Shown here: piece after piece, positions 34,818 to 63,227 of the stretch
How positions within the stretch are numbered: the first letter of the stretch is position 1
Layout of the letters: every line of letters starts with the position of its first letter
Source: Burkholderia sp. Leaf177
GTDB taxonomy: Bacteria; Pseudomonadota; Gammaproteobacteria; Burkholderiales; Burkholderiaceae
Assembly: GCF_001424345.1 (NCBI RefSeq)
Contig: NZ_LMPF01000012.1
Span: 311,662-375,661, forward strand
Direction of reading: 5' to 3'
Length of the DNA stretch: 64,000 nucleotides
Notes under the pieces: model-generated
Database searches by the model: none
Seen by the model: the letters and a program-made list of their open reading frames with translations, nothing else
Told to the model about the DNA's origin: nothing
Made by a program: the position numbers and the translations under genes

Positions 34818-36050
34818 ATGCTGGCTGACAAGTCATCCTGGTTGCGCATGGCCGCTGTGGTCGCGCTTGCCTGTTCTTCCGCAGCCGCAATTGCAGCGGA
34901 CCCGATCAAGCTTGGGTTGCTCGAAGATGCATCGGGGAATTTTGCGTTGGCCACCATTCCGAAGATTCACGCGACCGAACTGGCCGTGGACGAGATCAAC
35001 GCCAAGGGCGGGATCATGGGACGGCCGATCAAACTGATTGCGTACGACACGCAATCGGACAACACCAAGTTCCAGGAGTTGTCGCGCCGTCTGATTCAGA
35101 CCGACAAGGCCGACGTGATCTTCGGCGGATTCTCGAGCGCGTCGCGCGAAGCGATCCGGCCGATCATGGATCGTGCGCATCAGCTCTACTGGTACAACAA
35201 TCAGTACGAAGGCGGCGTGTGCGACTCGAATGTTTTCGTGACGGGCGCCGTCCCCGAACAGCAATTCTCGACGCTGATTCCTTGGATGATGCAGAAGTAC
35301 GGCAAGAAGGTTTACACGATCGCGGCCGACTATAACTTCGGCCAGATATCGGCGGAATGGGTCCGCAACATCGTCAAGGAGAATGGCGGGACGATGGTCG
35401 GCGAAGAGTTCATTCCGCTCAGCGTTTCGCAGTTTGGCCAAACGATCCAGAACATTCAGAAGGCAAAGCCGGACTTCGTGATGACCTTGCTGGTCGGCGC
35501 TAATCAGGCGTCTTATTACGAGCAGCAAGCGTCGGCGCATTTGAATCTGCCGATGGGAAGTTCCGTGAACGTCGGCCAGGCGTATGAGCACAAGCGCTTC
35601 AAGGCGCCCGCGTTGAAGGACATGTTCGTGACGGCGAACTATGTGGAAGAGGTCGATTCGCCAGCGAGCAACGACTTCAAGAAACGCTTCCACGCGAAGT
35701 ATCCGAACGAGCCGTACATCAACCAGGAAGCTGCGAACGCATACGACGCGGTCTATCTGTACAAGGAAGCGGTGGAGAAGGCGAAGTCGACCAACCAGGC
35801 GGCAGTCGAGAAGGCGCTGGATGGCGGCGGCATTTGCACGGATGGACCTTCAGGGAAGGTGTGTATCGACCCGAAAAGCCATCACCTGAGCCACACCATC
35901 TACCTCGTGCATGTGAAGGAAGATCACTCGGTCGAGATTCCGAAAGTATGGAACGACGTGCAGCCGTACTGGCTCGGACAAGTCGGGTGCAATCTTCCAG
36001 TGAAGCCGGATCATCGTCAGTACACGCCGTCGAGCCTGCCAAAGTCCTGA
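34818..36050 (+). CDS. Urea/short-chain amide-type ABC substrate-binding protein (UrtA/FmdD-like), ANTAR-leader controlled
   Basis: This 410-residue binding protein has a Sec signal peptide (residues 1 to about 28, ending AAAIAA-DP). The mature part parallels the protein at 24436: IKLGLLEDASGNFALA, LYWYNNQYEGGVCDSNVFVTG, AADYNFGQ. It belongs to the urea/amide type I periplasmic binding proteins. AAGGAG lies seven bases before the ATG. It is the first gene after the terminator-bearing leader and heads an operon that also encodes formamidase, AmiC and AmiR, which makes a short amide such as formamide or acetamide the likely ligand. Cytosolic AmiC at 40527 is a related fold without a signal peptide. 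Confidence 0.92.
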   Translation: MLADKSSWLRMAAVVALACSSAAAIAADPIKLGLLEDASGNFALATIPKIHATELAVDEINAKGGIMGRPIKLIAYDTQSDNTKFQELSRRLIQTDKADVIFGGFSSASREAIRPIMDRAHQLYWYNNQYEGGVCDSNVFVTGAVPEQQFSTLIPWMMQKYGKKVYTIAADYNFGQISAEWVRNIVKENGGTMVGEEFIPLSVSQFGQTIQNIQKAKPDFVMTLLVGANQASYYEQQASAHLNLPMGSSVNVGQAYEHKRFKAPALKDMFVTANYVEEVDSPASNDFKKRFHAKYPNEPYINQEAANAYDAVYLYKEAVEKAKSTNQAAVEKALDGGGICTDGPSGKVCIDPKSHHLSHTIYLVHVKEDHSVEIPKVWNDVQPYWLGQVGCNLPVKPDHRQYTPSSLPKS

Positions 36051-36055
36051 TGTGA

Positions 36056-36094
36056 TGGCGCGAACGTCCAACGCTTCTGACGGCGATCGCGCCA
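36056..36094 (+). repeat. Intercistronic hairpin between binding protein and permease genes
   Basis: An eight-base-pair perfect outer stem (36056-36063 with 36087-36094) and a four-base-pair inner stem (36065-36068 with 36079-36082) sit six bases after the binding protein stop. No T-run follows. Such hairpins often protect the upstream message and lower downstream expression, giving excess binding protein over membrane parts. Confidence 0.65.
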
Positions 36095-36122
36095 ATCCAC
36101 GAGCTTCAACGAGATCCCCGCG

Positions 36123-36992
36123 ATGACAGCATTCTCCACACTGTATTCGGTCATCTATCAGTTCGGCGATAACTTCGCCTACCTCGTGCTTGCCGCGCTC
36201 GGACTGGCCGTCATCTTCGGCATGATGGGCATCATCAACCTCGCGCATGGCGAGTTCATCATGTGCGGCGCGTACGTGACCATCATCTGCGCGAAGCGTG
36301 GCGTGCCTTTGCCCGTTGCAATGTTGCTCGGCGCATTGGCGGCGGCCATTGCAGGGGTCGCGATCGAGCGGCTGGTGATACGTCACCTCTATAACCGGCT
36401 TTACGATTCGGTGGTGGCGACCTGGGCAATCAGCCTGATTGTGCAACAGACCATGCTGCTGGTCGCGGGACCTTCAATGGAAGGCATCAGCACGCCTTTT
36501 GGTTCGTTCAGTTTCGGCGAGTATTCGTTCTCCACTTATCGTGCAGTGCTGCCCGTCATCGCGCTGATTGTTCTCGGCTTGCTCTACTTGCTGTTTTTCA
36601 AGAGCAACTACGGCGTGTGCGCGCGAGCCACGATTCAGAACGCGAACATGGCGCAGTCGCTAGGGCTGCGAACCGACCGGCTCTATACGCTGACGTTTGC
36701 GCTCGGCGCCGGGCTTGCAGGGCTCACCGGCGCTTTGTACGCGCCGACCATGACCGCGGTTCCAACCATGGGCACGAACTTCATCGTGCAGGCGTTTGTG
36801 TCGGTGGTCGTAGGCGGCGCCAATGTCATTGCTGGAACCACGCCGGCCGCCGCTGCGCTCGCGGTGATCCAAACTGCGTTGACTGCATCGTACGGACAAC
36901 TGTTCGGACAGATCGGCTTGCTGCTGACAGTGATCGTGGTGATTCGTCTGATGCCGCAAGGCCTCGGCAATCTGTTCAGTCGCGCCCGCTAG
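36123..36992 (+). CDS. Branched-chain/urea-type ABC permease (LivH/UrtB-like), second importer
   Basis: This 289-residue permease has about eight spans and the family region GLAVIFGMMGIINLAHGEFIMCGAY (about residues 27-51), close to the paralogue at 25691. A 72-base gap with a hairpin separates it from the binding protein, unlike the 13-base gap in the first importer. It forms the membrane channel with the next gene product. Confidence 0.9.
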   Translation: MTAFSTLYSVIYQFGDNFAYLVLAALGLAVIFGMMGIINLAHGEFIMCGAYVTIICAKRGVPLPVAMLLGALAAAIAGVAIERLVIRHLYNRLYDSVVATWAISLIVQQTMLLVAGPSMEGISTPFGSFSFGEYSFSTYRAVLPVIALIVLGLLYLLFFKSNYGVCARATIQNANMAQSLGLRTDRLYTLTFALGAGLAGLTGALYAPTMTAVPTMGTNFIVQAFVSVVVGGANVIAGTTPAAAALAVIQTALTASYGQLFGQIGLLLTVIVVIRLMPQGLGNLFSRAR

Positions 36993-37001
36993 GAATCGCC
37001 G

Positions 37002-38069
37002 ATGAATCAATCAACTTCCAATCTGCCCGCGCGACGTTTCGTTCCAATAGCAATCCGGCTCGTGCCGTGGCTGCTTGCTCTATGTTTGCCGCTGGTGGTC
37101 GATAGCACCGCGAGCGGCAACTTTGCCTATTGTCTCGTCTGGTCGTTTTCGGCAATCGGGCTTGCCGCAATGTGGGGCCAGGGCGGCATTCTCTCGTTTG
37201 GTCAAACTGCGTTCTTCGGATTGTCCGGCTACACGTACGGAATCGTGACCATCAATCTCGGCGATGGCTGGGTATCGTCCTGGAGCGGACTGCTGATCGG
37301 ACTTGCAGTGAGCGTGGCCGTAGCAGCGCTCCTCGGGTACATGATCTTCTACGGCAAGATCAAGGGCGTGTTTATAGGGATCGTGACGCTTTCTGTGACG
37401 CTCGTGCTGGAAACGTTCATGGCGCAAACTGCGGGACCGCAATGGGCCATTGGTGAGGCGCGGCTCAACGGTTACAACGGCATGTCCGGCATGCCGCCGT
37501 TATCGATTCCCTGGATCGGCGGTGAAGTCACGCTGGAAAATACACGGTTCTATTATCTGGTCGTCGTGCTGCTCGCGCTTGTCTATGCGATCACCCGGCG
37601 CCTGCTTGATTCGCCCTTCGGGCTGACGCTCGTCGCCATCCGCGAAAATCCGCAGCGCGCCGAAATGCTTGGCGTGGATATCCGCCGGCATCAACTCCTG
37701 ATCTTCGTGTTCGGCTGCGCACTCGGCGGCCTCTCGGGCGCGCTCTATACCATCTGGGGATCGTACATCACGCCTTCTGCAATGGGGCTGACGTCCGCCG
37801 CCATGCCGATCATCTGGGTCGCGACCGCAGGACGCCGGAGCATAGGCGGGGCGATCATCGGCACAGCGCTGCTAGTGTGGCTCTCGCAATGGCTCGCCAT
37901 TTATGGAAGCCAGTACGCGCTGATCCTGATGGGCGCCATTCTGCTGTTCGTGGTGCTTGTGGCGCCCGAAGGATTGCTGCCTTTGGTATCGAAACTTGTG
38001 CGGCGCGGCACTTCACGCAAGGCGCATTCACCGCGCTCGTTCAAAACCCGCACGAGGAGCGAACCGTGA
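37002..38069 (+). CDS. Branched-chain/urea-type ABC permease (LivM/UrtC-like), second importer
   Basis: This 355-residue permease has GQGGILSFGQTAFFGLSGY (about residues 60-78) and the coupling loop IRENPQRAEMLGVDIRRH (about 210-227). About ten hydrophobic spans can be drawn, with a basic C-terminal tail. It begins nine bases after the first permease and its stop overlaps the GTG start of the ATPase. It is the paralogue of the permease at 26554. Confidence 0.9.
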   Translation: MNQSTSNLPARRFVPIAIRLVPWLLALCLPLVVDSTASGNFAYCLVWSFSAIGLAAMWGQGGILSFGQTAFFGLSGYTYGIVTINLGDGWVSSWSGLLIGLAVSVAVAALLGYMIFYGKIKGVFIGIVTLSVTLVLETFMAQTAGPQWAIGEARLNGYNGMSGMPPLSIPWIGGEVTLENTRFYYLVVVLLALVYAITRRLLDSPFGLTLVAIRENPQRAEMLGVDIRRHQLLIFVFGCALGGLSGALYTIWGSYITPSAMGLTSAAMPIIWVATAGRRSIGGAIIGTALLVWLSQWLAIYGSQYALILMGAILLFVVLVAPEGLLPLVSKLVRRGTSRKAHSPRSFKTRTRSEP

Positions 38070-38779
38070 GCACGACCTTACTCGAGACCCGTGCGCTCGC
38101 GAAGCATTTTGGCGGCGCGCACGTGATCAATGGCATCGACTTTGCAATCGGTGAAGGCGAGATCCGATGCGTGATCGGACCGAACGGTGCGGGGAAAAGC
38201 ACCTTTTTCAAGCTCATTACGGGCGAGCATCGGCCGAGTGCCGGTTCTGTTTCGTTTCTCGGCCGCGATCTGAATCATGTGCTGCCGCACGAACGAATCC
38301 GCATGGGGATGAGCATCAAGTTTCAGATTCCGGGCATTTTTCCGGAGCTCACCGTGCGCCAGCATTTGCAGCTCGGTTTGCATCGCGTGAAAGACGATAG
38401 CGCCGAGTCGCTCGAGCAACTGCTACATCAGTTCCTGCTGGACGAGGAAGAGCACGTACTTGCAGGCAACCTGTCTCACGGTAAAAAACAGTGGCTCGAG
38501 ATTGCAATGGCTGTGTCGCTCAAGCCAAAACTTCTTTTCCTCGATGAACCCGTCGCCGGCATGTCCGCCGAAGAAACGCACGCAACGGGCGAGCTGATCA
38601 TGGGCTTGCGCGAGCGTGGACTGACCATCATGGTGGTCGAGCATGACATGACGTTCGTGCGGCAAGTGGCGACGCGCGTGACGGTGTTGCACGCCGGCCG
38701 TCTTTTCGCCGATGGCCCGCTCGAAGAAATCCTCGCGCGCGACGACGTTGCCGAAATTTATCTGGGCAAGAAGAAATGA
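38066..38779 (+). CDS. ABC transporter ATP-binding protein (LivG/UrtD-like), second importer
   Basis: This 237-residue ATPase starts at a GTG that overlaps the permease stop (GTGA), with GAGGAG about ten bases upstream. It has Walker A GPNGAGKST, signature LSHGKKQWLEIA as in UrtD, Walker B LLFLDEPVAGM and H-loop VVEHDM. The SHGKKQ signature is nearer to UrtD than the paralogue at 27609. The next ATPase overlaps it by four bases. Confidence 0.92.
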   Translation: MSTTLLETRALAKHFGGAHVINGIDFAIGEGEIRCVIGPNGAGKSTFFKLITGEHRPSAGSVSFLGRDLNHVLPHERIRMGMSIKFQIPGIFPELTVRQHLQLGLHRVKDDSAESLEQLLHQFLLDEEEHVLAGNLSHGKKQWLEIAMAVSLKPKLLFLDEPVAGMSAEETHATGELIMGLRERGLTIMVVEHDMTFVRQVATRVTVLHAGRLFADGPLEEILARDDVAEIYLGKKK

Positions 38780-39483
38780 CGACTCTGCTCGAAATCTCCG
38801 GCGTTGAATGTGGCTATGCGGGCGGCAAGGTCCTGAACGGTGTATCCATGACCGTCGAGCGCGGCGAGATCGTCGCTTTGATCGGACGAAACGGCGTTGG
38901 CAAGACCACGTTGATGCGCGCGTTGATTGGCCTCGTTCCGTTGATGGCCGGCAGCATTGCGCTGAACGGCGAGGAAATTGGCGACACGCGGCCCTATTCG
39001 CGGGCACGGCATGGCGTGGGTTACGTGCCGCAGGGCCGCGAGGTGTTTCCGGCGTTGACAGTGCGTGAAAACCTGCAAGTGGGTGCCCAGTCGAATCGCG
39101 CGCGCCTGACGGAAATGCTCGACAAGGTCGTGGGTTATTTTCCCGTGCTCGGTGCACGTTTTCAACAAAAGGCGGGTACGTTGAGCGGCGGCGAACAGCA
39201 GCAACTCGCCATTGCGCGTGCGTTAATCGGCTCGCCAAAGATCCTGTTGCTCGATGAACCGTCAGAAGGAATCCAGCCGTCCATCGTGGATCTGATTGGC
39301 GAGACATTAATTCGGATCGCTGATGAAACGGGTATCGGCGTGTTGTTGGTGGAACAGAACATGGGTATGGTTGAAAGCGTCGCCGCGCGCTGCTGCGTGA
39401 TGGACAAGGGGAGGATTGTGAGCTCCCTGAACCGCGCGCAACTCGCCGACGAAGAACTGATTCGCCAGTATCTGGCACTTTAG
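38776..39483 (+). CDS. ABC transporter ATP-binding protein (LivF/UrtE-like), second importer
   Basis: This 235-residue ATPase has Walker A GRNGVGKTTLM, GVGYVPQGREVFPALTVRENL, signature LSGGEQQQLA and Walker B LLLDEPSEGIQPSI. The GIQPSI motif is typical of the UrtE/LivF group. It completes the second five-gene importer and lies 12 bases before the formamidase gene. Confidence 0.92.
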   Translation: MTTLLEISGVECGYAGGKVLNGVSMTVERGEIVALIGRNGVGKTTLMRALIGLVPLMAGSIALNGEEIGDTRPYSRARHGVGYVPQGREVFPALTVRENLQVGAQSNRARLTEMLDKVVGYFPVLGARFQQKAGTLSGGEQQQLAIARALIGSPKILLLDEPSEGIQPSIVDLIGETLIRIADETGIGVLLVEQNMGMVESVAARCCVMDKGRIVSSLNRAQLADEELIRQYLAL

Positions 39484-39495
39484 AAAGGACCCGGC

Positions 39496-40482
39496 ATGCA
39501 ATGGCTTAACGACTCGATCATGATGCAACGCGGCGTGGGCGCGAATCGGGAAGGCACGACCCATCAACTGACTGAAGCGTTGCAGGACACGTTTCACTAC
39601 ACCATTGGTCCGTATTCCACGCCGGTCCTGCACGTTCAACCGGGCGACACCGTCGTGGTCGAAACACGCGATGCGTTCGAGGGGAAGATCACCTCCGAGA
39701 CCGACAAGCCGTCGCAGATCCTGAAGATGCCGTTCCTGAATCCACAGAACGGGCCGATCATGATCGAAGGTGCGGAGAAGGGCGATGTGATTGCGGTGTA
39801 CATCGAAAAGATGGCGCCGCGTGGCGACGATCCGCACGGTTTTTGTTGCATGATCCCGAACTTCGGCGCGCTGACAGGGACGGACTATACGGCCTTGCTC
39901 AACGAACCGCTTCCCGAGATTGTCCGCAAGATCAAGATCGACGAGGACAACGTCTACTGGAGCCGGCGCAATACGTTGCCGTACAAACCGCATATCGGCA
40001 CGTTGAGTCTTTCGCCGGAAATCGACTCCATCAATTCACTGACGCCGGATTCGCATGGCGGCAATATGGATGTGCCCGACATGGGTCCGGGCAGCATCAC
40101 TTATTTGCCGGTTCGTTCACCGGGCGCACGCTTGTTCATTGGCGACGCTCACGCGTGCCAGGGCGACGGCGAGGTTTGCGGAACGGCGGTTGAATACGCG
40201 AGCACGACCACCATTCGCGTGGACCTGATCAAGAACTGGGCCATTGCGTGGCCGCGTCTGGAGAACGAAGACGCGCTGATGAGCATTGGCAGCGCGAGGC
40301 CGCTGGAAGATGCAACGCGGATTGCGTATCGCGAACTGGTGCTGTGGATGGCGGCTGAATACGGATTCGACAAATGGGACGCGTATATGATGCTCAGTCA
40401 ATGCGGCAAGGTTCGCCTCGGCAATTTTGTCGATCCAAAATATACGGTCGGCGCCATGATCGCGAAGCATTATCTGAAGTGA
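39496..40482 (+). CDS. fmdA: Acetamidase/formamidase (FmdA/AmdA family), short form
   Basis: This 328-residue enzyme of PF03069 splits formamide or acetamide to ammonia and the acid. Family marks include the VQPGDTVVVETRDAF strand (about residues 47-61), EGAEKGDVIAVYIEK, and the GDAHACQGDGEVCGTAVE motif (about 216-233) with the probable metal-binding His and acidic residues. It is much shorter than the 414-residue paralogue at 61983 and belongs to another subgroup. It follows the importer genes directly, so uptake and hydrolysis are co-expressed under the ANTAR leader. Confidence 0.92.
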   Translation: MQWLNDSIMMQRGVGANREGTTHQLTEALQDTFHYTIGPYSTPVLHVQPGDTVVVETRDAFEGKITSETDKPSQILKMPFLNPQNGPIMIEGAEKGDVIAVYIEKMAPRGDDPHGFCCMIPNFGALTGTDYTALLNEPLPEIVRKIKIDEDNVYWSRRNTLPYKPHIGTLSLSPEIDSINSLTPDSHGGNMDVPDMGPGSITYLPVRSPGARLFIGDAHACQGDGEVCGTAVEYASTTTIRVDLIKNWAIAWPRLENEDALMSIGSARPLEDATRIAYRELVLWMAAEYGFDKWDAYMMLSQCGKVRLGNFVDPKYTVGAMIAKHYLK

Positions 40483-40526
40483 CGCGCCAATGCCGTCCCA
40501 CGAATGCATGACCTGAAAAGCGCTCC

Positions 40527-41681
40527 ATGTCTCTATCCGAACCTGTCAAGATCGGGCTGCTGTGCTCCACGACCGGCGCGACTGCGCCGCTGGAGATGTC
40601 TCAATGGCGGGGTTCAATCCTGGCTGTCGAGGAGATCAATCAGCTCGGCGGCGTGGCGGGGCGGGAACTGTCGGTCGTGCATTACGATCCGGGCTCGGAT
40701 TCCACACGCTTTCGAGCGCTCGCGGAAAAGCTCATTCTCGACGACGGCGTGAATGTGATCTTCGGCGGATACACGTCGTCGAGCCGCAAGGCGATGTTGC
40801 CTGTTGTAGAAAAACATAATCGTCTGCTGGTTTATTCGCAGCAATACGAAGGTTTTGAGTTTTCCGAGAACATCATCTATAGCGGTGCGTCGCCAAATCA
40901 AAATGGCTTGCAGCTTGCGGAATTTATGACGTCCACTTACGGCGCGCGCTGTTACATGGTGGGCTCGCGCTACGTGTACCCGTACGAGTGCAACCGGACC
41001 ATGCAGGAGCTGTTGCTGCAACATCCCGACGGCGCGATCCTTGGCGAGCGGTATCTGGATCTCAACGCACCGTTCGAGCATTTCGCCGATGTCGTCGCGG
41101 ACATACAAAAGAAACGGCCCGACTTCATTTTCTGCACGGTGATAGGCCGCACCGTGCCGTATCTCTATCAGGCGTTCGCGCACGCGGGTCTCGATCCGGC
41201 GCGCATGCCCATTGGAAGCCTGAATACTTCGGAAACCGAAATATCGTTGATGGAGCGTGGCGTCGCAACCGGGCATATCACCGCTGCGCCGTATTTTCAG
41301 AGCATCGGCACGCCGGAGAACCGCACGGCCCTCGCGCGTCACGTGGAACGATTTGGACGTCAGCATCCAACCGACATGAACTGGGAAGCCGCGTACTACC
41401 AGATGCACATGTATGCGAACGCTTTCAACAAGGCAGGCTCGGACGATATCGGCACGATCATGCCGCATTTGCTGGGAGCGGAATTCGCGGCGCCGCAAGG
41501 GCGCGTGCATATCGATCGCGTCAATCACCACATGGCGTTGTATCCGCGGATTGGCCGCGCGGGAAGCGACGGGCAGTTTTCCATCCTGCGTGAGTCGGCG
41601 CATGCGGTCGCGCCGGATCCTTACATGGCGTCGCAGAGTCTGGGCGACTGGGTGACGAAGCTCAGCACGCGGGAGCACTGA
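40527..41681 (+). CDS. amiC: AmiC-like cytosolic amide sensor
   Basis: This 384-residue type I periplasmic-binding fold protein has no signal peptide (MSLSEPVKIGLLCSTTGATAP), which fits AmiC: a cytosolic amide receptor that holds AmiR inactive until an amide binds. The YSQQYEGFEFSENIIYSGA segment (about residues 105-123) parallels the YNNQYEGGVCDSNVFVTG region of the exported binding proteins in this window, showing descent from them. The amiR gene follows with two bases between stop and start, as in the Pseudomonas ami operon. Function as ligand-gated inhibitor of antitermination is inferred from family and order. Confidence 0.9.
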   Translation: MSLSEPVKIGLLCSTTGATAPLEMSQWRGSILAVEEINQLGGVAGRELSVVHYDPGSDSTRFRALAEKLILDDGVNVIFGGYTSSSRKAMLPVVEKHNRLLVYSQQYEGFEFSENIIYSGASPNQNGLQLAEFMTSTYGARCYMVGSRYVYPYECNRTMQELLLQHPDGAILGERYLDLNAPFEHFADVVADIQKKRPDFIFCTVIGRTVPYLYQAFAHAGLDPARMPIGSLNTSETEISLMERGVATGHITAAPYFQSIGTPENRTALARHVERFGRQHPTDMNWEAAYYQMHMYANAFNKAGSDDIGTIMPHLLGAEFAAPQGRVHIDRVNHHMALYPRIGRAGSDGQFSILRESAHAVAPDPYMASQSLGDWVTKLSTREH

Positions 41682-41682
41682 C

Positions 41683-42348
41683 GTGACGCCACAACGCGAG
41701 GGTCGACAACGCAGTCTGACCGGTTCGGTATTGAACCGGGGGCTGTCCGTTGTCGTCTTTCATCCGGACGACAACGACGGCGCGACGCTCACCAATCACC
41801 TGAAACGCATGGGTTTTCAGGTCGCCGCGTTCTGGCCGCCTCTTGAAGTGTTGCCCGACAAGGTCGATCTGGTTTTCCGCGCGTTGATTCCGGAAGAACA
41901 GGCGCCTCGCGATGCATGGCTCGGCCCTGACGGCCCGCCGGTGATATCGATCATCTCCTACGAGAATCCCACGTTTATCGACCAGGCATTGAAGATGGGA
42001 TCGAACGCGATCATCACAACGCCGATCCGCGCTTCCGGCTTGCTGGCAACCGTTGTGTTTGCAATGCAGAACGCCCGGCAGAACCGGCAGATGACGGAAC
42101 GCATCGCGAGTCTGGAGCAGAAGGTGAATGGAGCACGCCATCTCAACGAGGCCAAATCCATCCTCATGGCAATGCATCAGATATCGGAAGCCGAGGCCTA
42201 CGAAATCTTGCGCGGCCAGGCAATGGCGAAGCGCGTCAGCGTCGACGACATGTGTCATTCGATCATCCAGGCAGGCGAACTCCTCAAGGTAAAGCGCGCG
42301 GTGCCCAAGCCCTGTGCCGACGATACACATTCCCAGCCGGACCTTTAA
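41683..42348 (+). CDS. amiR: AmiR-like ANTAR transcription antiterminator
   Basis: This 221-residue RNA-binding regulator has an N-terminal pseudo-receiver (about 18-128, including the AmiR-like AFWPPLEVL) without a usable phospho-acceptor: the expected position reads VDLVFRAL. A coiled coil (about 128-155) and a C-terminal ANTAR domain (about 146-202) follow, with NEAKSILMAMHQISEAEAYEILRGQAM carrying the conserved Ala-Lys and Ala-Met residues. ANTAR domains bind paired hexaloop hairpins and stop terminator formation. The matching RNA lies at 34692-34747 upstream of this same operon. Translation starts at a GTG. Overlap of control and target makes positive feedback likely. Confidence 0.9.
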   Translation: MTPQREGRQRSLTGSVLNRGLSVVVFHPDDNDGATLTNHLKRMGFQVAAFWPPLEVLPDKVDLVFRALIPEEQAPRDAWLGPDGPPVISIISYENPTFIDQALKMGSNAIITTPIRASGLLATVVFAMQNARQNRQMTERIASLEQKVNGARHLNEAKSILMAMHQISEAEAYEILRGQAMAKRVSVDDMCHSIIQAGELLKVKRAVPKPCADDTHSQPDL

Positions 42349-56580: not shown

Positions 56581-59028
56581 TCATGAGCCGGACGTGAACA
56601 GCGCCTTGCGGATGATCGCATGCACGCCCCAGTTTCCATCGACCACTTGAGTGACGCCGAAATCCACCGCGACGGACATCAGCGAGATCGCCTCGTCTTC
56701 GGAAAGGCCCTTCGTGGACATCAGGAATCGGCGCGTCTTGATGAACGCGTCGCGCATTGCCTGGTCGAGCGTGGATTTCTGGTAGACCTCGCTCTGTGCG
56801 CTCGTGCCGAACTCAGCCAGATAGTTAGGATGGCTGAATCCATGCAAAACCCATTCGTCTGCCGTTTCTACCAGCGGGTACGTGAGGTCCGCGAAGGGCT
56901 GGTCGGCGAGCGTCTTTTTCTTATGGAGAATGAGTTCGAAATCGCCCGTCAACGAGCATTCGATTGCCGTTCCGCATAACTCCGAATCGCCTTGCGATGC
57001 ATGGGGATCCCCGATCGAAAGCAACGCGCCAGTTACGCCCACTGGAAGATAAACGCTTGCGCCGCGCCCGACGCGCCAGTTGTCCAGGTTGCCGCCGAAA
57101 GCCGAAGGCGGAATCGAATCGATCAAACCATCCTGCTGCGGCGCGACCGCGATCACGCCGAAATGTGGCCGCACTGGAATGGTCACGTTCTTCAGGATGT
57201 TGTGGTTCTCCACGACGGTCGAATGGTCGACCGGCACGCCCGGGTAATCGATCGTCGGATGAACCACGCCGAACGGGTCGCGCTGAGGCGTCCATCTGTA
57301 GTTGTAGACGGCACGTGCGTGGGCGGTGACACCGTCGTCGGCGGCTTGTGCATCGATCTCGTAGATGGTGACGACTTCACGCGGCTTGGGCTCGGTCAGC
57401 AACTCGCGGTAATGAAAGCCCCACCATGCAGCCGCGTTGCTGCCGAACGCGCGTCCGTGGAAGTTCGGGTTGGCGCAAGGTCGTGCGTGGATATCGACAA
57501 TGCGAACTTCGAGGACGTCGCCCGGCTCGGCATCGCGAACGGCGATCGGGCCGGTGCAGATATGCACGCCGAAACCTTCGCCCGCGCCGCGGCCATAAAT
57601 GGATGCGTCCATGGGGCCGGCGCCGCGCCGGTTGACGTTCTTGCGTTCGGACGTCCAGTGGAACACGCTCTCGGCGCCGGGGTCTCCCGCGACCATGCGT
57701 TCCCAGTCGTCGGCGGCATGCTGGGTCAGGGCTTCTATGGTGACCGTGTCGCCACTTTGCACTTCCAGCACCGGCTTCAGGTCGTGGCTGAAATAGCCCC
57801 AATGCACGGTGTTGGCGGTTGCGCGCAGCAAATGATGGCGCGGCTTGTCCCGTTGCACGGGCGGTTCGGTCAGTACTGCGTCTAGGCCGATATCGAGCGC
57901 CACCAGCGTATCCGCATCGGCTTCTATGCCGGCGCGTTTTGCTTGCAAAAGCAGGGCCGGCGCGTTGACAGGCAATCCGCGCGAGATGCGCCGCACCAGA
58001 TGCCGCGCAATTTCAAGGCTCGCTTCATGGCGGAACGTGCGGGGTGACGCGCCGTATCGTTCGCGAAAGACGCGGCTGAAATGCGCGGGATCGTTGAAGC
58101 CCCACCTGAAACAGATATCGGAGACGGAAACTTTTTCGTACAACGGGTCGACGAGTTCCGCACGGCAGCGTTCGAGCCTGCGCGAGCGCAAGTAAGTGGA
58201 GAAGCTTTGCCCTGCGCTTTCAAAAAGCTTCTGCACATAGCGCGGCGAGACGCGTTCTTCCTTGGCAAGTGTCGCGACGCTGAGCGTGGGATCGCCGAGG
58301 TTTGCTTCTATCGATCTGCACACGCGCGAAAAAATCGCCGCCTGAGAAGGCGTCAGTCCGCCGAACGAACCTTTGCGCTCGTGTCCCGCGAGGCTGGCGA
58401 CCAGGAATTCGGCCAGCGCCAGTTCGAGCGGGCGCAATTCTCCCGCTGACAAGGTCTCGACGCTTTCCGCGACTGATCGAAGAAAGCCCGAGAAAACGTG
58501 GCCGATGCCGGCTTCGCCCGAGAGCCGCGCCGCTCTCAGTGAAAACGGCGACAACAGCCGCGCGTTGACGGCATCGCGCGGAACCCGCACGACAAACACG
58601 CGAAAGCTGGAAGCAAACGCAATCGACGCCGCTTGTTGAGAAGACGCATAGATGATGTCGTGCACGCTAACGAGCTCGCGCTCGTCGTCGGCGATCAACG
58701 TGGCGTCGCCGTCCAGCAGCAGCACGATCATGAGGCTGTCGGCGTGGTCGGCCTTGAGTTCCAGCGTCTGCGCCACTGACGCGAGCGATGTGAGCTCGAA
58801 CCCGCCAATAGACGTCTGCGATACCAGCGTGCCATGCAGCGTGCGATCGGCGTTGATCCTGCTGCACCAGCCGAGCTTGTCGAGCACCGTGCTCCATTCG
58901 CGCAGGCGTTCGACTTCAGGATATGACTCGGTGGTGAAGCGCAACAGGTCCAAGCAGAACTCCACAAAAAAAGCGGCGAGACGTGAAGCTTTGAAAGCAA
59001 CCTTCGCGCCATCGGCGGCACCAGACAT
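56581..59028 (-). CDS. Fusion of an AraC-type transcription regulator and an acetamidase/formamidase
   Basis: One uninterrupted frame of 815 residues. Residues about 25-225 form an AraC-binding-like sensor domain (FeaR/NitR type); 232-335 hold two AraC helix-turn-helix motifs (LSVATLAKEERVSPRYVQKL, and VSVSDICFRWGFNDPAHFSR). A linker of about 60 residues leads to a full acetamidase/formamidase domain (about 397-815) that aligns over its whole length with the separate enzyme at 61983, including DWERMVAGDPGAESVFHW, SIPP and GDPHASQGDSELCGTAIE. Putative catalytic residues appear intact. It is divergent from a polar amino acid importer followed by that paralogue, so enzyme and gene control are joined. 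Residue ranges are counted; function of the fusion is inferred. Confidence 0.88.
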   Translation of the reverse strand: MSGAADGAKVAFKASRLAAFFVEFCLDLLRFTTESYPEVERLREWSTVLDKLGWCSRINADRTLHGTLVSQTSIGGFELTSLASVAQTLELKADHADSLMIVLLLDGDATLIADDERELVSVHDIIYASSQQAASIAFASSFRVFVVRVPRDAVNARLLSPFSLRAARLSGEAGIGHVFSGFLRSVAESVETLSAGELRPLELALAEFLVASLAGHERKGSFGGLTPSQAAIFSRVCRSIEANLGDPTLSVATLAKEERVSPRYVQKLFESAGQSFSTYLRSRRLERCRAELVDPLYEKVSVSDICFRWGFNDPAHFSRVFRERYGASPRTFRHEASLEIARHLVRRISRGLPVNAPALLLQAKRAGIEADADTLVALDIGLDAVLTEPPVQRDKPRHHLLRATANTVHWGYFSHDLKPVLEVQSGDTVTIEALTQHAADDWERMVAGDPGAESVFHWTSERKNVNRRGAGPMDASIYGRGAGEGFGVHICTGPIAVRDAEPGDVLEVRIVDIHARPCANPNFHGRAFGSNAAAWWGFHYRELLTEPKPREVVTIYEIDAQAADDGVTAHARAVYNYRWTPQRDPFGVVHPTIDYPGVPVDHSTVVENHNILKNVTIPVRPHFGVIAVAPQQDGLIDSIPPSAFGGNLDNWRVGRGASVYLPVGVTGALLSIGDPHASQGDSELCGTAIECSLTGDFELILHKKKTLADQPFADLTYPLVETADEWVLHGFSHPNYLAEFGTSAQSEVYQKSTLDQAMRDAFIKTRRFLMSTKGLSEDEAISLMSVAVDFGVTQVVDGNWGVHAIIRKALFTSGS

Positions 59029-59309
59029 GTGGGCGATTCAGTGCAAATCCGGGCATCGATTGTCGGCTCGCAGTGCATGCATGCGCCATTGCAGCGCACG
59101 CATGCACGACGAAGCGCTCTTCACCGCATGTAGTCGTGAGCCGCTCACGATCAAGCCACGAGAGACTCGCACCCGCGTTCACGTCTGTACCAGCAGTTGT
59201 GCGCGCGCAGACAAGTCTTGCTGATTTCGTTCGCATACGCTCGATCTCGTGCGATGCAAAAGGCGTGCGTCGTGCAAGCCATTGTCATCAGCCGCATAGG
59301 AGCGTTTCA
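59029..59309. promoter_or_regulatory. Divergent control region with two inverted repeats
   Basis: This 281-base gap lies between the AraC-formamidase fusion and the importer operon. One inverted repeat has 13-base arms with a single mismatch (59073-59085 and 59095-59107, nine bases between). A second has perfect seven-base arms TCGTGAG/CTCACGA (59134-59150, three between). Either could be the operator of the fused AraC protein. No clear promoter hexamers were fixed. Confidence 0.5.
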
Positions 59310-60263
59310 ATGAACAAGAATATTTTTGGCCGGGGTCTGCAGCGCCTGACTGAATGCCTGGTCACCAAGATGAGCACCTACAAGAGCGCAAGCTGCGCGC
59401 GCCTGGCGTTGCTCGGCGGCGTTTGCTCCGTATTGTTTTTGATCTCGGGAACCGCGAGTGCCGCAGGCCCGGCCACGCCTGCAGCGTGCACCGCGTTGCA
59501 AGCCAAGTATCCGCAATTCAAGGGCAAGACGCTCGTCAATGCAATCAATCCGCATACGCCGGGGTATGAGGCGCTGGACCCGAATGATCCGAGCAAATAT
59601 ATCGGCTTCGATATCGATCTCGGCGAACTGATCGGCAGTTGTCTCGGGTTCACGATGACCTACAAACCCGTCACCTTCGCCGCACTGCTGACCACCTTGC
59701 AAAGCGGCCAGGCGGATATTGTCATCTCCGACATCTACGCGACCGAAGAACGTGCGAAGGCTGCCGACTTCATCACCTACTCGAAGGTGTTCGACGGCGT
59801 GCTGGTCGTCAAGGGCAACCCGAAGAAACTCACCGGCATCAATACGTCGATGTGCGGCACTACCGCCGCTGAAAACACAGGGTACGTAGAGGTTCCGCTG
59901 ATCCAGAATCTTGGGCCGGCATGCAAGGCTGCTGGCAAACCGGAAGCAACGGTACAGCTCTACGACAACAACGCGAACTGCATCCAGGCAATTCTGGCCG
60001 GTCGCGCCGACACTTATATCAACGATGTGAATACCGTCGATCAGGCGGTCAAGGCGTTCCCGGACAAGCTCGAAAAGGCGACTGCGGTGACGCTGCCGTA
60101 TTCGGTCGGCATTGGCGTACCGAAGGGCAAGACCGAGTTCCGCGACGCCATCATGGCCGCGCTGGTCGCGATCCAGAAGAGCGGAGCGCAGACCGAGCTG
60201 CTCAACAAGTGGCAACTCGGCGCGGGCAATCTCGAACCGGCCAAGCTGATCGTATCGAACTGA
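59310..60263 (+). CDS. Polar amino acid-type ABC substrate-binding protein
   Basis: This 317-residue type II binding protein has a long signal peptide (hydrophobic LALLGGVCSVLFLISGTASA, cut near residue 52) and mature features of the PAAT family: GFDIDLGELIGSCLGF, LQSGQADIVISDIYATEERAKAADFITYS, and DTYINDVNTVDQAV. AGGAG lies eight bases before the ATG at 59310. It is the first gene of the importer operon; its stop shares a base with the ATG of the fused permease-ATPase. An amide-bearing ligand is suggested by the formamidases on both sides. Confidence 0.9.
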   Translation: MNKNIFGRGLQRLTECLVTKMSTYKSASCARLALLGGVCSVLFLISGTASAAGPATPAACTALQAKYPQFKGKTLVNAINPHTPGYEALDPNDPSKYIGFDIDLGELIGSCLGFTMTYKPVTFAALLTTLQSGQADIVISDIYATEERAKAADFITYSKVFDGVLVVKGNPKKLTGINTSMCGTTAAENTGYVEVPLIQNLGPACKAAGKPEATVQLYDNNANCIQAILAGRADTYINDVNTVDQAVKAFPDKLEKATAVTLPYSVGIGVPKGKTEFRDAIMAALVAIQKSGAQTELLNKWQLGAGNLEPAKLIVSN

Positions 60264-61867
60264 TGGATCTTTTTCTCCATTACCTTCGCTTGCCGTATCT
60301 GCTCGAAGGCATCAGCTTCACGATCGCGGTCACGGCGCTAGGCCTCGCAGGAGGCCTCGTCGTGGGGCTCGTGCTGGCCGCCATGCAGCTGAGCCGCATC
60401 GGACCGCTGGCGGCCATCGCGCGCGGCTACACGGTCATCTTCCGGGGCACGCCGCTGATCCTGCAGCTTGTCTTTGCATACGATGCACTGCCGCACATAG
60501 GCCTGAAACTGAGCGCGATAGGTGCGGCGGGACTTGCGCTGGCATTGAACGAAGGGCCGTTCATAGCGGAGATATTGCGCTCGGGCGTGCTCGGGGTCGA
60601 TCGCGGCCAGACCGTTGCGGGTCAGGCGCTCGGCATGACACCGGGCGTGCTGATGCGGCGAATCATTGCTCCGCAGGCAATCCGCACGATGGTCCCCGCG
60701 CTCGGAAACGAGTCCGTCAGCGCGCTGAAAAACTCATCGCTGGCGTCGGTGATATCGGTCGGCGAACTGACGTTGCGCAGCACGCAACTGGCATCGTCGA
60801 CGTTCGATTTCTTCTCGATCTTCTTTGCCTCCGGTTTGCTCTACTTGTGCCTGACCGGTGCAATCGCGGCGATCCAGCTTTCCATAGAGCGCGCGCTCGA
60901 TCTCGACAAGCCGGCTTCGTCCAATGGCTTTATGCGCTTGCTGCCGTGGTACCGGTCAACGCTGCCGCCGAAACTCGGCCCGGGCGGCGCGGCGGTCGAA
61001 TCTCCAGCCGACACACCACCTGCGTTCCTGCCCATAAGTGCTTCGGAGCGCGCGACCCGATACGACGCGCTGGCGCGCAACGGCGCAGCGGTGCAAATCA
61101 GCGGGCTTCAAAAACGCTACGGAGAACAGACCGTTCTCGATGGCTTCGACCTGACGATCCGCTCCGGCGAAGTCGTGGCGCTGCTCGGTCCGAGCGGCTC
61201 GGGAAAAAGCACGCTGCTGCGCTGTATCAACCATCTCGAACACTGGGACGCAGGCGAGATTCGCGTCGGTGGCCGGCGCCTCGGCTTTCGCGACGACGGC
61301 CGGCGTCTGAATCCACACGATCTCGCCAACGAGCGGGCAAGCGTGGGTGTTGGCATGGTGTTCCAGCAGTTCAACCTCTTCAGTCATCTCAGCGCGCGCG
61401 AAAACATTGCGGGACCGTTGCGCTGGGTGCATGGCATGGCGCCCGCGGACGCGGACCGGCGGGCACGTGAGCTTCTTGAGCGCGTGGGCCTGAGTCATCG
61501 CGCCGATGCACTGCCGCGTCACCTGTCCGGCGGCCAGCAACAGCGCGTGGCGATTGCACGCGCGCTGGCGCCCAATCCGCGCGTGCTGCTACTCGATGAA
61601 CCCACGTCGGCGCTCGATCCCGAACTGGTCGGCGAAGTGCTGGAAGTGATCCGGCGCCTTGCATTCGAGGACGGCCTGACGATGATCATCTCCACGCATC
61701 AATTGCGTTTCGCCGATGAAGTCGCCGACCGCGTCGTGTTTCTCAGCGGCGGCGCGGTGGTGGAGGAGGGGCCGGCGCACGAGGTGTTGACGCGCCCTCG
61801 GCATCCGCTTACCGCACGCTTCCTGAGCGTCATGGGCGCGGACAGCCGCGTGGAAGTCATGTCGTGA
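60263..61867 (+). CDS. Fused ABC transporter permease and ATP-binding protein, polar amino acid type
   Basis: This 534-residue protein joins a HisM/GlnP-type permease (residues 1-215; five spans, coupling loop AGQALGMTPGVLMRR) to a full HisP/GlnQ-type ATPase (about 273-534) with Walker A GPSGSGKSTLL, signature LSGGQQQR, Walker B VLLLDEPTSALDP and H-loop STHQ. The linker is about 55 residues and Pro-rich. ATPase features all look intact. Such fusions are known in beta-proteobacteria and imply a homodimer with both parts. The ATG overlaps the binding protein stop by one base. Confidence 0.9.
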   Translation: MDLFLHYLRLPYLLEGISFTIAVTALGLAGGLVVGLVLAAMQLSRIGPLAAIARGYTVIFRGTPLILQLVFAYDALPHIGLKLSAIGAAGLALALNEGPFIAEILRSGVLGVDRGQTVAGQALGMTPGVLMRRIIAPQAIRTMVPALGNESVSALKNSSLASVISVGELTLRSTQLASSTFDFFSIFFASGLLYLCLTGAIAAIQLSIERALDLDKPASSNGFMRLLPWYRSTLPPKLGPGGAAVESPADTPPAFLPISASERATRYDALARNGAAVQISGLQKRYGEQTVLDGFDLTIRSGEVVALLGPSGSGKSTLLRCINHLEHWDAGEIRVGGRRLGFRDDGRRLNPHDLANERASVGVGMVFQQFNLFSHLSARENIAGPLRWVHGMAPADADRRARELLERVGLSHRADALPRHLSGGQQQRVAIARALAPNPRVLLLDEPTSALDPELVGEVLEVIRRLAFEDGLTMIISTHQLRFADEVADRVVFLSGGAVVEEGPAHEVLTRPRHPLTARFLSVMGADSRVEVMS

Positions 61868-61982: not shown

Positions 61983-63227
61983 ATGAAGCATCACATTCTC
62001 CCCGTGTCACCGGAAACCGTGCATTGGGGATATTTCAGCAAACAGGTTGCACCGGGTCTGACGCTGAAATCCGGCGACCGCGCCACGATCGAAACGCTCA
62101 CGCATCATGCCAATGACGACCACGAACGGATGATCGCAGGGGACCCGGGCGCAGAAAGCGTCTTTCACTGGACACGGGAGCACAAGGCCGTGTCGCGGCG
62201 CGGCGCGGGTCCGGTGGACGGTCCCTTCAAACTGGGCTCCGGAGAGGGCGTCGGCGTGCATCTTTTGACGGGGCCAGTGGTCATCGAAGGCGCCGAACCC
62301 GGCGATGTACTCGAAGTCCGTATCCTCGATGTTCGCCCGCGGCCAAGTTGCAGCGCGTGTCACCGCGGCCGTTGCTTCGGCTCCAACGTGGCGGCGTCCT
62401 GGGGTTTTCAATATCACGACCTGATAGAAGAGCCGAAGTCCCGCGAAGTCGTCACCATCTTCGAACTCGATACCACCGGCGAACCTTTTGCGCGCGCCGT
62501 CTACAACTATGTCTGGACGCCGCAAACCGATCCGGATGGCATCGTGCATACGAACATCGACTATCCGGGCGTGAAGGTCGATCACACGCTCGTCAAGCGC
62601 CGCGAAAACATTCTCCCCGACATCAAGGTGCCGGCGCGGCTGCATTTCGGCACGATGGGACTGGCGCCATCGGAAGCGGACTATGTCAGCTCGATCCCTC
62701 CCAGCTACACCGGCGGCAACATCGACGACTGGCGCGTGGGCAAGGGCGCGACGATGTATTACCCGGTCGCGGTCGAAGGCGCGTTTTTCTCCGTCGGCGA
62801 TCCGCACGCGGCACAAGGCGACAGCGAACTCGGCGGCACAGCGATCGAGACGTCGCTGACGGGCGACTTCGAATTCGTCTTGCACAAGAAAGCAGACCTC
62901 GGCGGAACCGTGCTCGAAGGCCTGACTCATCCGATGCTGGAAACCGATCAGCAATGGTCCATGTACGGTTTCACGTTCCCCAACTATCTGGCCGAACTCG
63001 GACCCAATGCGCAGCTCGAAATCGCGCAGCATTCGAGCCTCGACAAAGCCATGCGCGATGCATTCCGCAAATTGCGGCGGTTCCTCATGACCGTGCATAA
63101 GCTGAGCGAGGACGAAGCGATCGCACTGATGTCGGTCGCGGCGGACTTCGGCGTGACCCAGGTTGTCGATGCGAACTGGGGCGTGCATGGTTCCATTCGC
63201 AAGGACGTGTTCGCGGCGTACAGATAA
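61983..63227 (+). CDS. Acetamidase/formamidase (FmdA family), long form
   Basis: This 414-residue stand-alone enzyme starts MKHHILPVSPETVHWGYFS, with GAGG eight bases upstream. It has DDHERMIAGDPGAESVFHW, ASWGFQYHDL, SIPPSYTGGN and GDPHAAQGDSELGGTAIE. It matches the C-terminal half of the AraC fusion at 56581 over its full length, with more than half of the positions identical by eye. It hydrolyses a small amide to ammonia and acid. It follows the fused ABC importer by 115 bases, and an ABC ATPase gene follows by 44 bases. Confidence 0.92.
   Translation: MKHHILPVSPETVHWGYFSKQVAPGLTLKSGDRATIETLTHHANDDHERMIAGDPGAESVFHWTREHKAVSRRGAGPVDGPFKLGSGEGVGVHLLTGPVVIEGAEPGDVLEVRILDVRPRPSCSACHRGRCFGSNVAASWGFQYHDLIEEPKSREVVTIFELDTTGEPFARAVYNYVWTPQTDPDGIVHTNIDYPGVKVDHTLVKRRENILPDIKVPARLHFGTMGLAPSEADYVSSIPPSYTGGNIDDWRVGKGATMYYPVAVEGAFFSVGDPHAAQGDSELGGTAIETSLTGDFEFVLHKKADLGGTVLEGLTHPMLETDQQWSMYGFTFPNYLAELGPNAQLEIAQHSSLDKAMRDAFRKLRRFLMTVHKLSEDEAIALMSVAADFGVTQVVDANWGVHGSIRKDVFAAYR

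Follow-up and report, generated by a model that had tools for sequence, protein, structure and literature searches.

The window, the whole stretch of 64,000 nucleotides of Burkholderia sp. Leaf177 DNA that was analysed, carries a gene in which an AraC-type regulator is joined in frame to an acetamidase/formamidase, divergent from an operon that includes a stand-alone acetamidase/formamidase. The features of the locus are:

56581..59028, minus strand: AraC-FmdA fusion gene (P0001), 815 aa
58384..58941, minus strand: AraC_binding_2 sensor, residues 30-215, the fast-evolving part, with cupin-like strands in the structure model
58021..58335, minus strand: AraC-type double HTH, residues 232-336, well conserved (SxRYxQKLFE ... 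GFNDxAHFSR)
57853..58008, minus strand: residues 341-392, invariant R350 G351 P353 followed by a linker whose length varies and whose model confidence is low
56593..57843, minus strand: complete acetamidase/formamidase domain, residues 396-812, with the family motif GDPHASQGDSE intact
59189..59217, plus strand: predicted operator, ACCAGCAGTTGTGCGCGCGCAGACAAGTC, a direct repeat of ACAAG-type boxes with a 22-bp period, 92 bp before the start of the binding-protein gene
59310..60263, plus strand: SBP_bac_3 solute-binding protein, divergent operon
60263..61867, plus strand: fused ABC permease/ATPase
61983..63227, plus strand: stand-alone acetamidase/formamidase, the operon enzyme and third gene of the divergent unit

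When translated, 56581-59028 on the minus strand is one frame of 815 codons with a single terminal stop and none internal. The preliminary description of the locus, an AraC sensor and HTH in frame with a full amidase, is borne out by this translation, by Pfam, and by alignment with the solved amidase 3b9t. Matches above the Pfam gathering cut-offs are present for AraC_binding_2 (residues 70-212, 36 bits), HTH_18 (residues 254-334, 75 bits, with HTH_AraC also matched), and FmdA_AmdA (103 bits over two stretches, the best at 638-797). The amidase domain is complete, since residues 394-812 align end to end with 3b9t, the nearest solved structure (E about 1e-192), and span its length. In the predicted structure (mean pLDDT 76, pTM 0.54), where the orientation of the domains is unreliable, the C-terminal half is similar to 3b9t (Foldseek TMt 0.90), the N-terminal half to the AraC regulators CuxR and ToxT, and the linker (about 343-393) is of low confidence. 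Just after the HTH, the linker is headed by an RGxP motif at residues 350-353 (57970-57981, minus strand) that is invariant in 32 of 32 members; the stretch that follows it varies by member from 32 to 70 residues. Conserved homology in the alignment of members begins near residue 28 and therefore the true start codon may be downstream of the ATG at 59028.

Searching for the same architecture in other genomes, as had been proposed, found the fusion in 13 of 58 congeneric genomes, with that of Leaf177 counted, and in 79 of the 80 best loci from a scan of other genomes that took one genome per species. With the fusion recurring in the genomes of relatives, neither of the refutations put forward at the outset, a hidden stop or frameshift or an absence from relatives, holds. 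The hosts are soil, plant-associated, and marine alpha-, beta-, and gammaproteobacteria, those in the scan being Burkholderiales, Parvibaculum, Ancylobacter, Rhodospirillales, Beijerinckiaceae, Rhodanobacter, Halopseudomonas, and Aliiglaciecola, and in Rhizobium, Neorhizobium, and Novosphingobium there are plasmid-borne copies. A sample of 399 genomes from the order has the full fusion in two (Leaf177 itself and G189) and an unfused relative only (E <= 1e-100) in a further 19. The fusion is widespread but patchy, which would suggest horizontal transfer.

In a diverse alignment, the AraC_binding_2, HTH_18 and HTH_AraC, and amidase models are all matched in 32 of 32 members, which thus have both the double HTH of about 100 residues and the N-terminal effector/dimerisation domain of AraC/XylS transcription factors. 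In the tree a supported branch (SH-aLRT 97) sets the fused amidases apart as a single clade, consistent with one fusion event. Mean pairwise identity among members is 0.70 in the amidase, 0.54 in the HTH, and 0.32 in the sensor, with dN/dS over five comparisons of 0.02-0.06, 0.03-0.08, and 0.09-0.36, respectively; strong purifying selection acts on both halves. That a frame error or assembly artefact has joined two genes is ruled out by the congeneric genomes and fetched loci above, by the same fusion being present in dozens of independent assemblies, and by the low dN/dS of both halves. Losses of the fusion do occur: there are decayed copies with stops at L023, L033, and L083, and one at L061 with a break in the frame near the end of the amidase, L061 and L083 being among the fusion loci counted above. 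The copy in Rhizobium johnstonii (L117) is annotated as two ORFs.

A stand-alone FmdA lies within the fetched stretch in 80 of 86 fusion loci of other genomes, and a related permease/ATPase in 62 of the 86. The layouts vary, being divergent as in Leaf177, convergent, codirectional with the fusion at the end (binding protein, permease, FmdA, fusion, and in rhizobia then RidA), or with the fusion immediately preceded by an FmdA that belongs to another class. The association survives this rearrangement, which points to a shared function. Other neighbours include nitrile hydratase in C. zhejiangensis, RidA in rhizobia, dihydropyrimidinase and polysaccharide-deacetylase-like genes in P. aromaticivorans, and Rieske oxygenases and LigB in alpha- and gammaproteobacteria. 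These suggest amide or N-heterocycle catabolism, with no single substrate following from the neighbouring genes across the fusion loci. Elsewhere in the window, at 34818-42348 on the plus strand, there is a second amide cluster with branched-chain-type ABC transporter genes, a 328-aa acetamidase/formamidase (39496-40482), an AmiC-like sensor (40527-41681), and an ANTAR/AmiR-like gene (41683-42348), all named by resemblance only. The Leaf177 genome therefore seems to have two amide systems, each under a different kind of regulator.

The predicted operator, a conserved element newly identified here, is inside 59029-59309, ahead of the divergent transporter-amidase operon, and has the consensus ACAAG-N5-GTGCGC-N5-GACAAGT. 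Of 50 regions ahead of the binding-protein gene, 45 have a match to a matrix seeded on the conserved block from an alignment of upstream regions, where the best of 250 shuffles gives 2.9 bits. Across all loci there are 73 matches of more than 18 bits in 2.8 million positions, against 0 in the reversed sequence. Loci from different orders and of different layouts have the site ahead of their FmdA or transporter operon. Outside the training set it is found before FmdA in loci of the P. xenovorans type and of Aquabacterium/Oxalobacteraceae, before a porin gene in Oxalicibacterium, and before a Rieske oxygenase gene at L082. The loci L041, L061, and L089, each with two divergent transcription units, have two sites each. 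In marine gammaproteobacterial loci L086, L087, and L090, and in L069, L075, L092, and L118, the matrix scan found no good operator, which would mean that the site or its position differs there. In the Leaf177 genome the operator is unique at 0 mismatches, and matches with 2 mismatches equal the control. Within the genus the exact motif is present in 9 of 13 genomes with the fusion and 1 of 45 without (Fisher p = 6e-7, a value inflated by common descent), and it goes with the whole cluster, so that on its own the comparison does not tell an association with the fusion from one with the genes beside it.

With their spacing of 22 bp, the ACAAG-type boxes look like tandem AraC half-sites, and a 22-bp direct repeat is a typical form of AraC-type sites. 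At activated AraC/XylS promoters the downstream box is near the -35. Here, taking TACGCT of the conserved block as the -10 would put the downstream box approximately at the -35; a scan of 59000-59330 for the sigma-70 consensus found one weak site on the minus strand and nothing for the operon promoter.

There are further operator-like sites in some loci. Second copies of the operator are present after the fusion in Oxalobacteraceae (L095 at 10175, L096 at 9759, L098 at 10248), and that of L095 precedes a porin gene, such that the regulon may include outer-membrane uptake. At least one operator-like site of 15-24 bits is present in each of L066, L085, L104, L071, and L082, some of those in alphaproteobacteria being near Rieske oxygenase and divergent genes, where the local regulon is possibly larger. 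Sites of 14-21 bits are common to three Caballeronia loci (L034 14081, L035 14065, L036 11462, and L034 2300, L035 4898, L036 5347), one set being upstream of a second transporter of the same type.

The operator might belong to another regulator, with the fusion controlling something else. Some loci have no clear site and the link between fusion and operator is a predicted one, yet the site, which has the 22-bp direct repeat typical of AraC-type sites, is kept across layouts, orders, and types of FmdA and transporter, and the element common to all of these is the fusion. This alternative is unlikely, and from the sequence evidence the fusion very probably regulates the adjacent operon.

The fused amidase was described at first as parallel to the separate enzyme of the operon. 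That enzyme is indeed encoded nearby, but the fused domain is not its copy, belonging to the separate clade already noted and having fixed residues of its own; both the tree and 20 diagnostic columns rule out a recent duplication of the operon enzyme. The fused domain is approximately 60% identical to the stand-alone FmdA of the operon and 63-69% identical to 3b9t-like stand-alone amidases, of which one relative (L112, 70%) has a twin-arginine-like leader. The FmdA_AmdA motifs GGN(L/M)D and GDxHAxxGDxE are present and the domain is full-length, the GDPHASQGDSE stretch corresponding to a motif that 2f4l, 5ubu, and 2ii1 have in common. Almost all of the residues that are near-invariant in two classes of stand-alone enzyme, within the family motifs, are retained (H437, H489, D504, E507, H622, N647, D649, D674, H676, D681, E683, E690). 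Against the NCBIfam FmdA formamidase equivalog NF045496 the score is 59 bits, with a cut-off of 500, which by sequence places the amidase of the fusion in the superfamily and not among the formamidases of that model. Over the same 780 pairs, mean identity is 0.745 for the fused amidase and 0.794 for the operon enzyme; the fused domain evolves only a little faster than the enzyme of the operon.

It might be that the amidase half is an ordinary second catabolic enzyme, cotranslated with the regulator for co-expression or fixed stoichiometry and having no regulatory effect. The intact family motifs, a rate slightly above that of the operon enzyme, and the long and variable linker of 32-70 residues would fit with this. 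Regulators are usually made in few copies, however, so the flux gained from a fused enzyme would be small. Those 80 of 86 loci already have a dedicated enzyme nearby, and among the fetched loci an amidase with the D637/L661 signature is never stand-alone. Such a role is unlikely, and the amidase part of the fusion probably has a regulatory one.

A regulatory role might also be filled without catalysis, the amidase half serving purely to bind and sense the amide, as the aminotransferase-like domain does in MocR. Residues that are fixed in the enzyme classes are replaced in the fused class, with Q in place of H436 (in 93%), D in place of S637, and L in place of Y661, among others, and the AraC sensor is poorly conserved while the amidase is conserved. 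Against this, the GD-HA-GD-E motif is intact, L661 is present also in the solved family members 2f4l and 5ubu, and position 436 is not a conserved His outside the classes compared. The class-specific changes mean that the substrate or activity of the fused domain may differ, and because positions 661 and 436 vary elsewhere in the family they favour altered specificity at least as much as lost catalysis. An enzyme made dead by H436Q and Y661L is not supported, both positions varying among solved FmdA family members. A wholly non-catalytic sensor seems rather unlikely; judged from its sequence, the fused domain is on balance more likely catalytic than not.

The explanation preferred here for the whole, with a probability of roughly 0.6, is that the fusion is a local AraC regulator of the amide operon to which an amide-binding amidase domain has been coupled. 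The protein would be of the AraC/XylS type and most likely an activator of the adjacent operon for amide uptake and hydrolysis, and in relatives it would also control other operons bearing the operator. It would bind the repeat of 22-bp period at 59189-59217, probably as a dimer. The C-terminal amidase, on its flexible linker and related to 3b9t-like amidases, would be a working amide-binding domain that links the switch to the amide or to its hydrolysis. Its occupancy or turnover may alter the activity of the HTH part, as in a trigger enzyme, with which the architecture of the fusion would fit, or the amidase may clear the inducer and so act as a brake that ends induction. As put forward at the outset, the fusion may also sense by catalysis or bring the enzyme to its genes. 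A more tentative proposal, with less than even odds, is that turnover of the amide by the regulator itself sets the on-time of the operon, making it a catalytic sensor or timer with detection and destruction in one AraC protein. If true, this would be a widespread and undescribed class of trigger enzyme.

For AraC regulators, 106 companion domains have been reported in a study in which the word amidase is absent (PMC5882156). A search of the open-access literature, mostly without subscription papers, found no description of an AraC-amidase combination. The combination, which had been called unfamiliar, is so to the extent that no paper describing it was found, but it is already in the sequence databases under enzyme and regulator names, as "acetamidase/formamidase family protein" or "AraC family transcriptional regulator". 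This suggests that, in many genomes, genes with the annotation "acetamidase/formamidase family protein" are in fact regulators. The class is wide in the Proteobacteria and apparently of single origin. Its conserved operator makes the regulon directly testable and the solved full-length homologue 3b9t is a guide to active-site mutants, and therefore the fusion can be used to test binding against turnover sensing by enzyme-derived domains.

The amidase is homologous over its full length to 3b9t (FmdA_AmdA, PF03069), from Methylobacillus, at 63-64% identity in the structural alignment, and the two have the fold and the motif residues in common. The 3b9t protein is stand-alone and, deposited as a "twin-arginine translocation pathway signal protein", is named as Tat-exported, whereas the amidase here forms the C-terminal part of a regulator predicted to be cytoplasmic and has the class-specific Q436, D637, and L661. 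AraC regulators of the FeaR/XylS type (AraC_binding_2 and HTH_18) match the sensor and HTH of the fusion over residues 70-336, but in the fusion approximately 480 residues follow the HTH, which normally ends the protein. The best solved relative of the AraC part is CuxR (5nla), and the score against the NCBIfam FeaR equivalog NF007243 is 118 bits with a cut-off of 199. In Ada of E. coli an AraC-type HTH is followed by a methyltransferase. The fusion is similar in having an AraC-type HTH and then an enzyme of the controlled pathway, although in Ada the enzyme is unrelated, the signal is DNA alkylation, and there is no AraC_binding_2 sensor. The trigger enzyme PutA is a catalytic protein that binds the DNA of its own pathway genes. 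The fusion, to judge by its architecture, would likewise combine enzyme and DNA binding at pathway genes in one protein; PutA is the main enzyme of its pathway and has a small DNA-binding domain, whereas the pathway of the fusion has a separately encoded enzyme. The MocR/GabR regulators (PMC5320631) have a GntR HTH joined to an aminotransferase-like domain and control metabolic genes. They share with the fusion an enzyme-derived domain joined to a DNA-binding domain, but the HTH family and the enzyme are others and in MocR the enzyme-like domain is the sensor, while the fusion has an AraC sensor too. Fusions of regulator and enzyme are thus a known kind, and the AraC-amidase adds another class to the few regulators that incorporate an enzyme of the type found in their own pathway.
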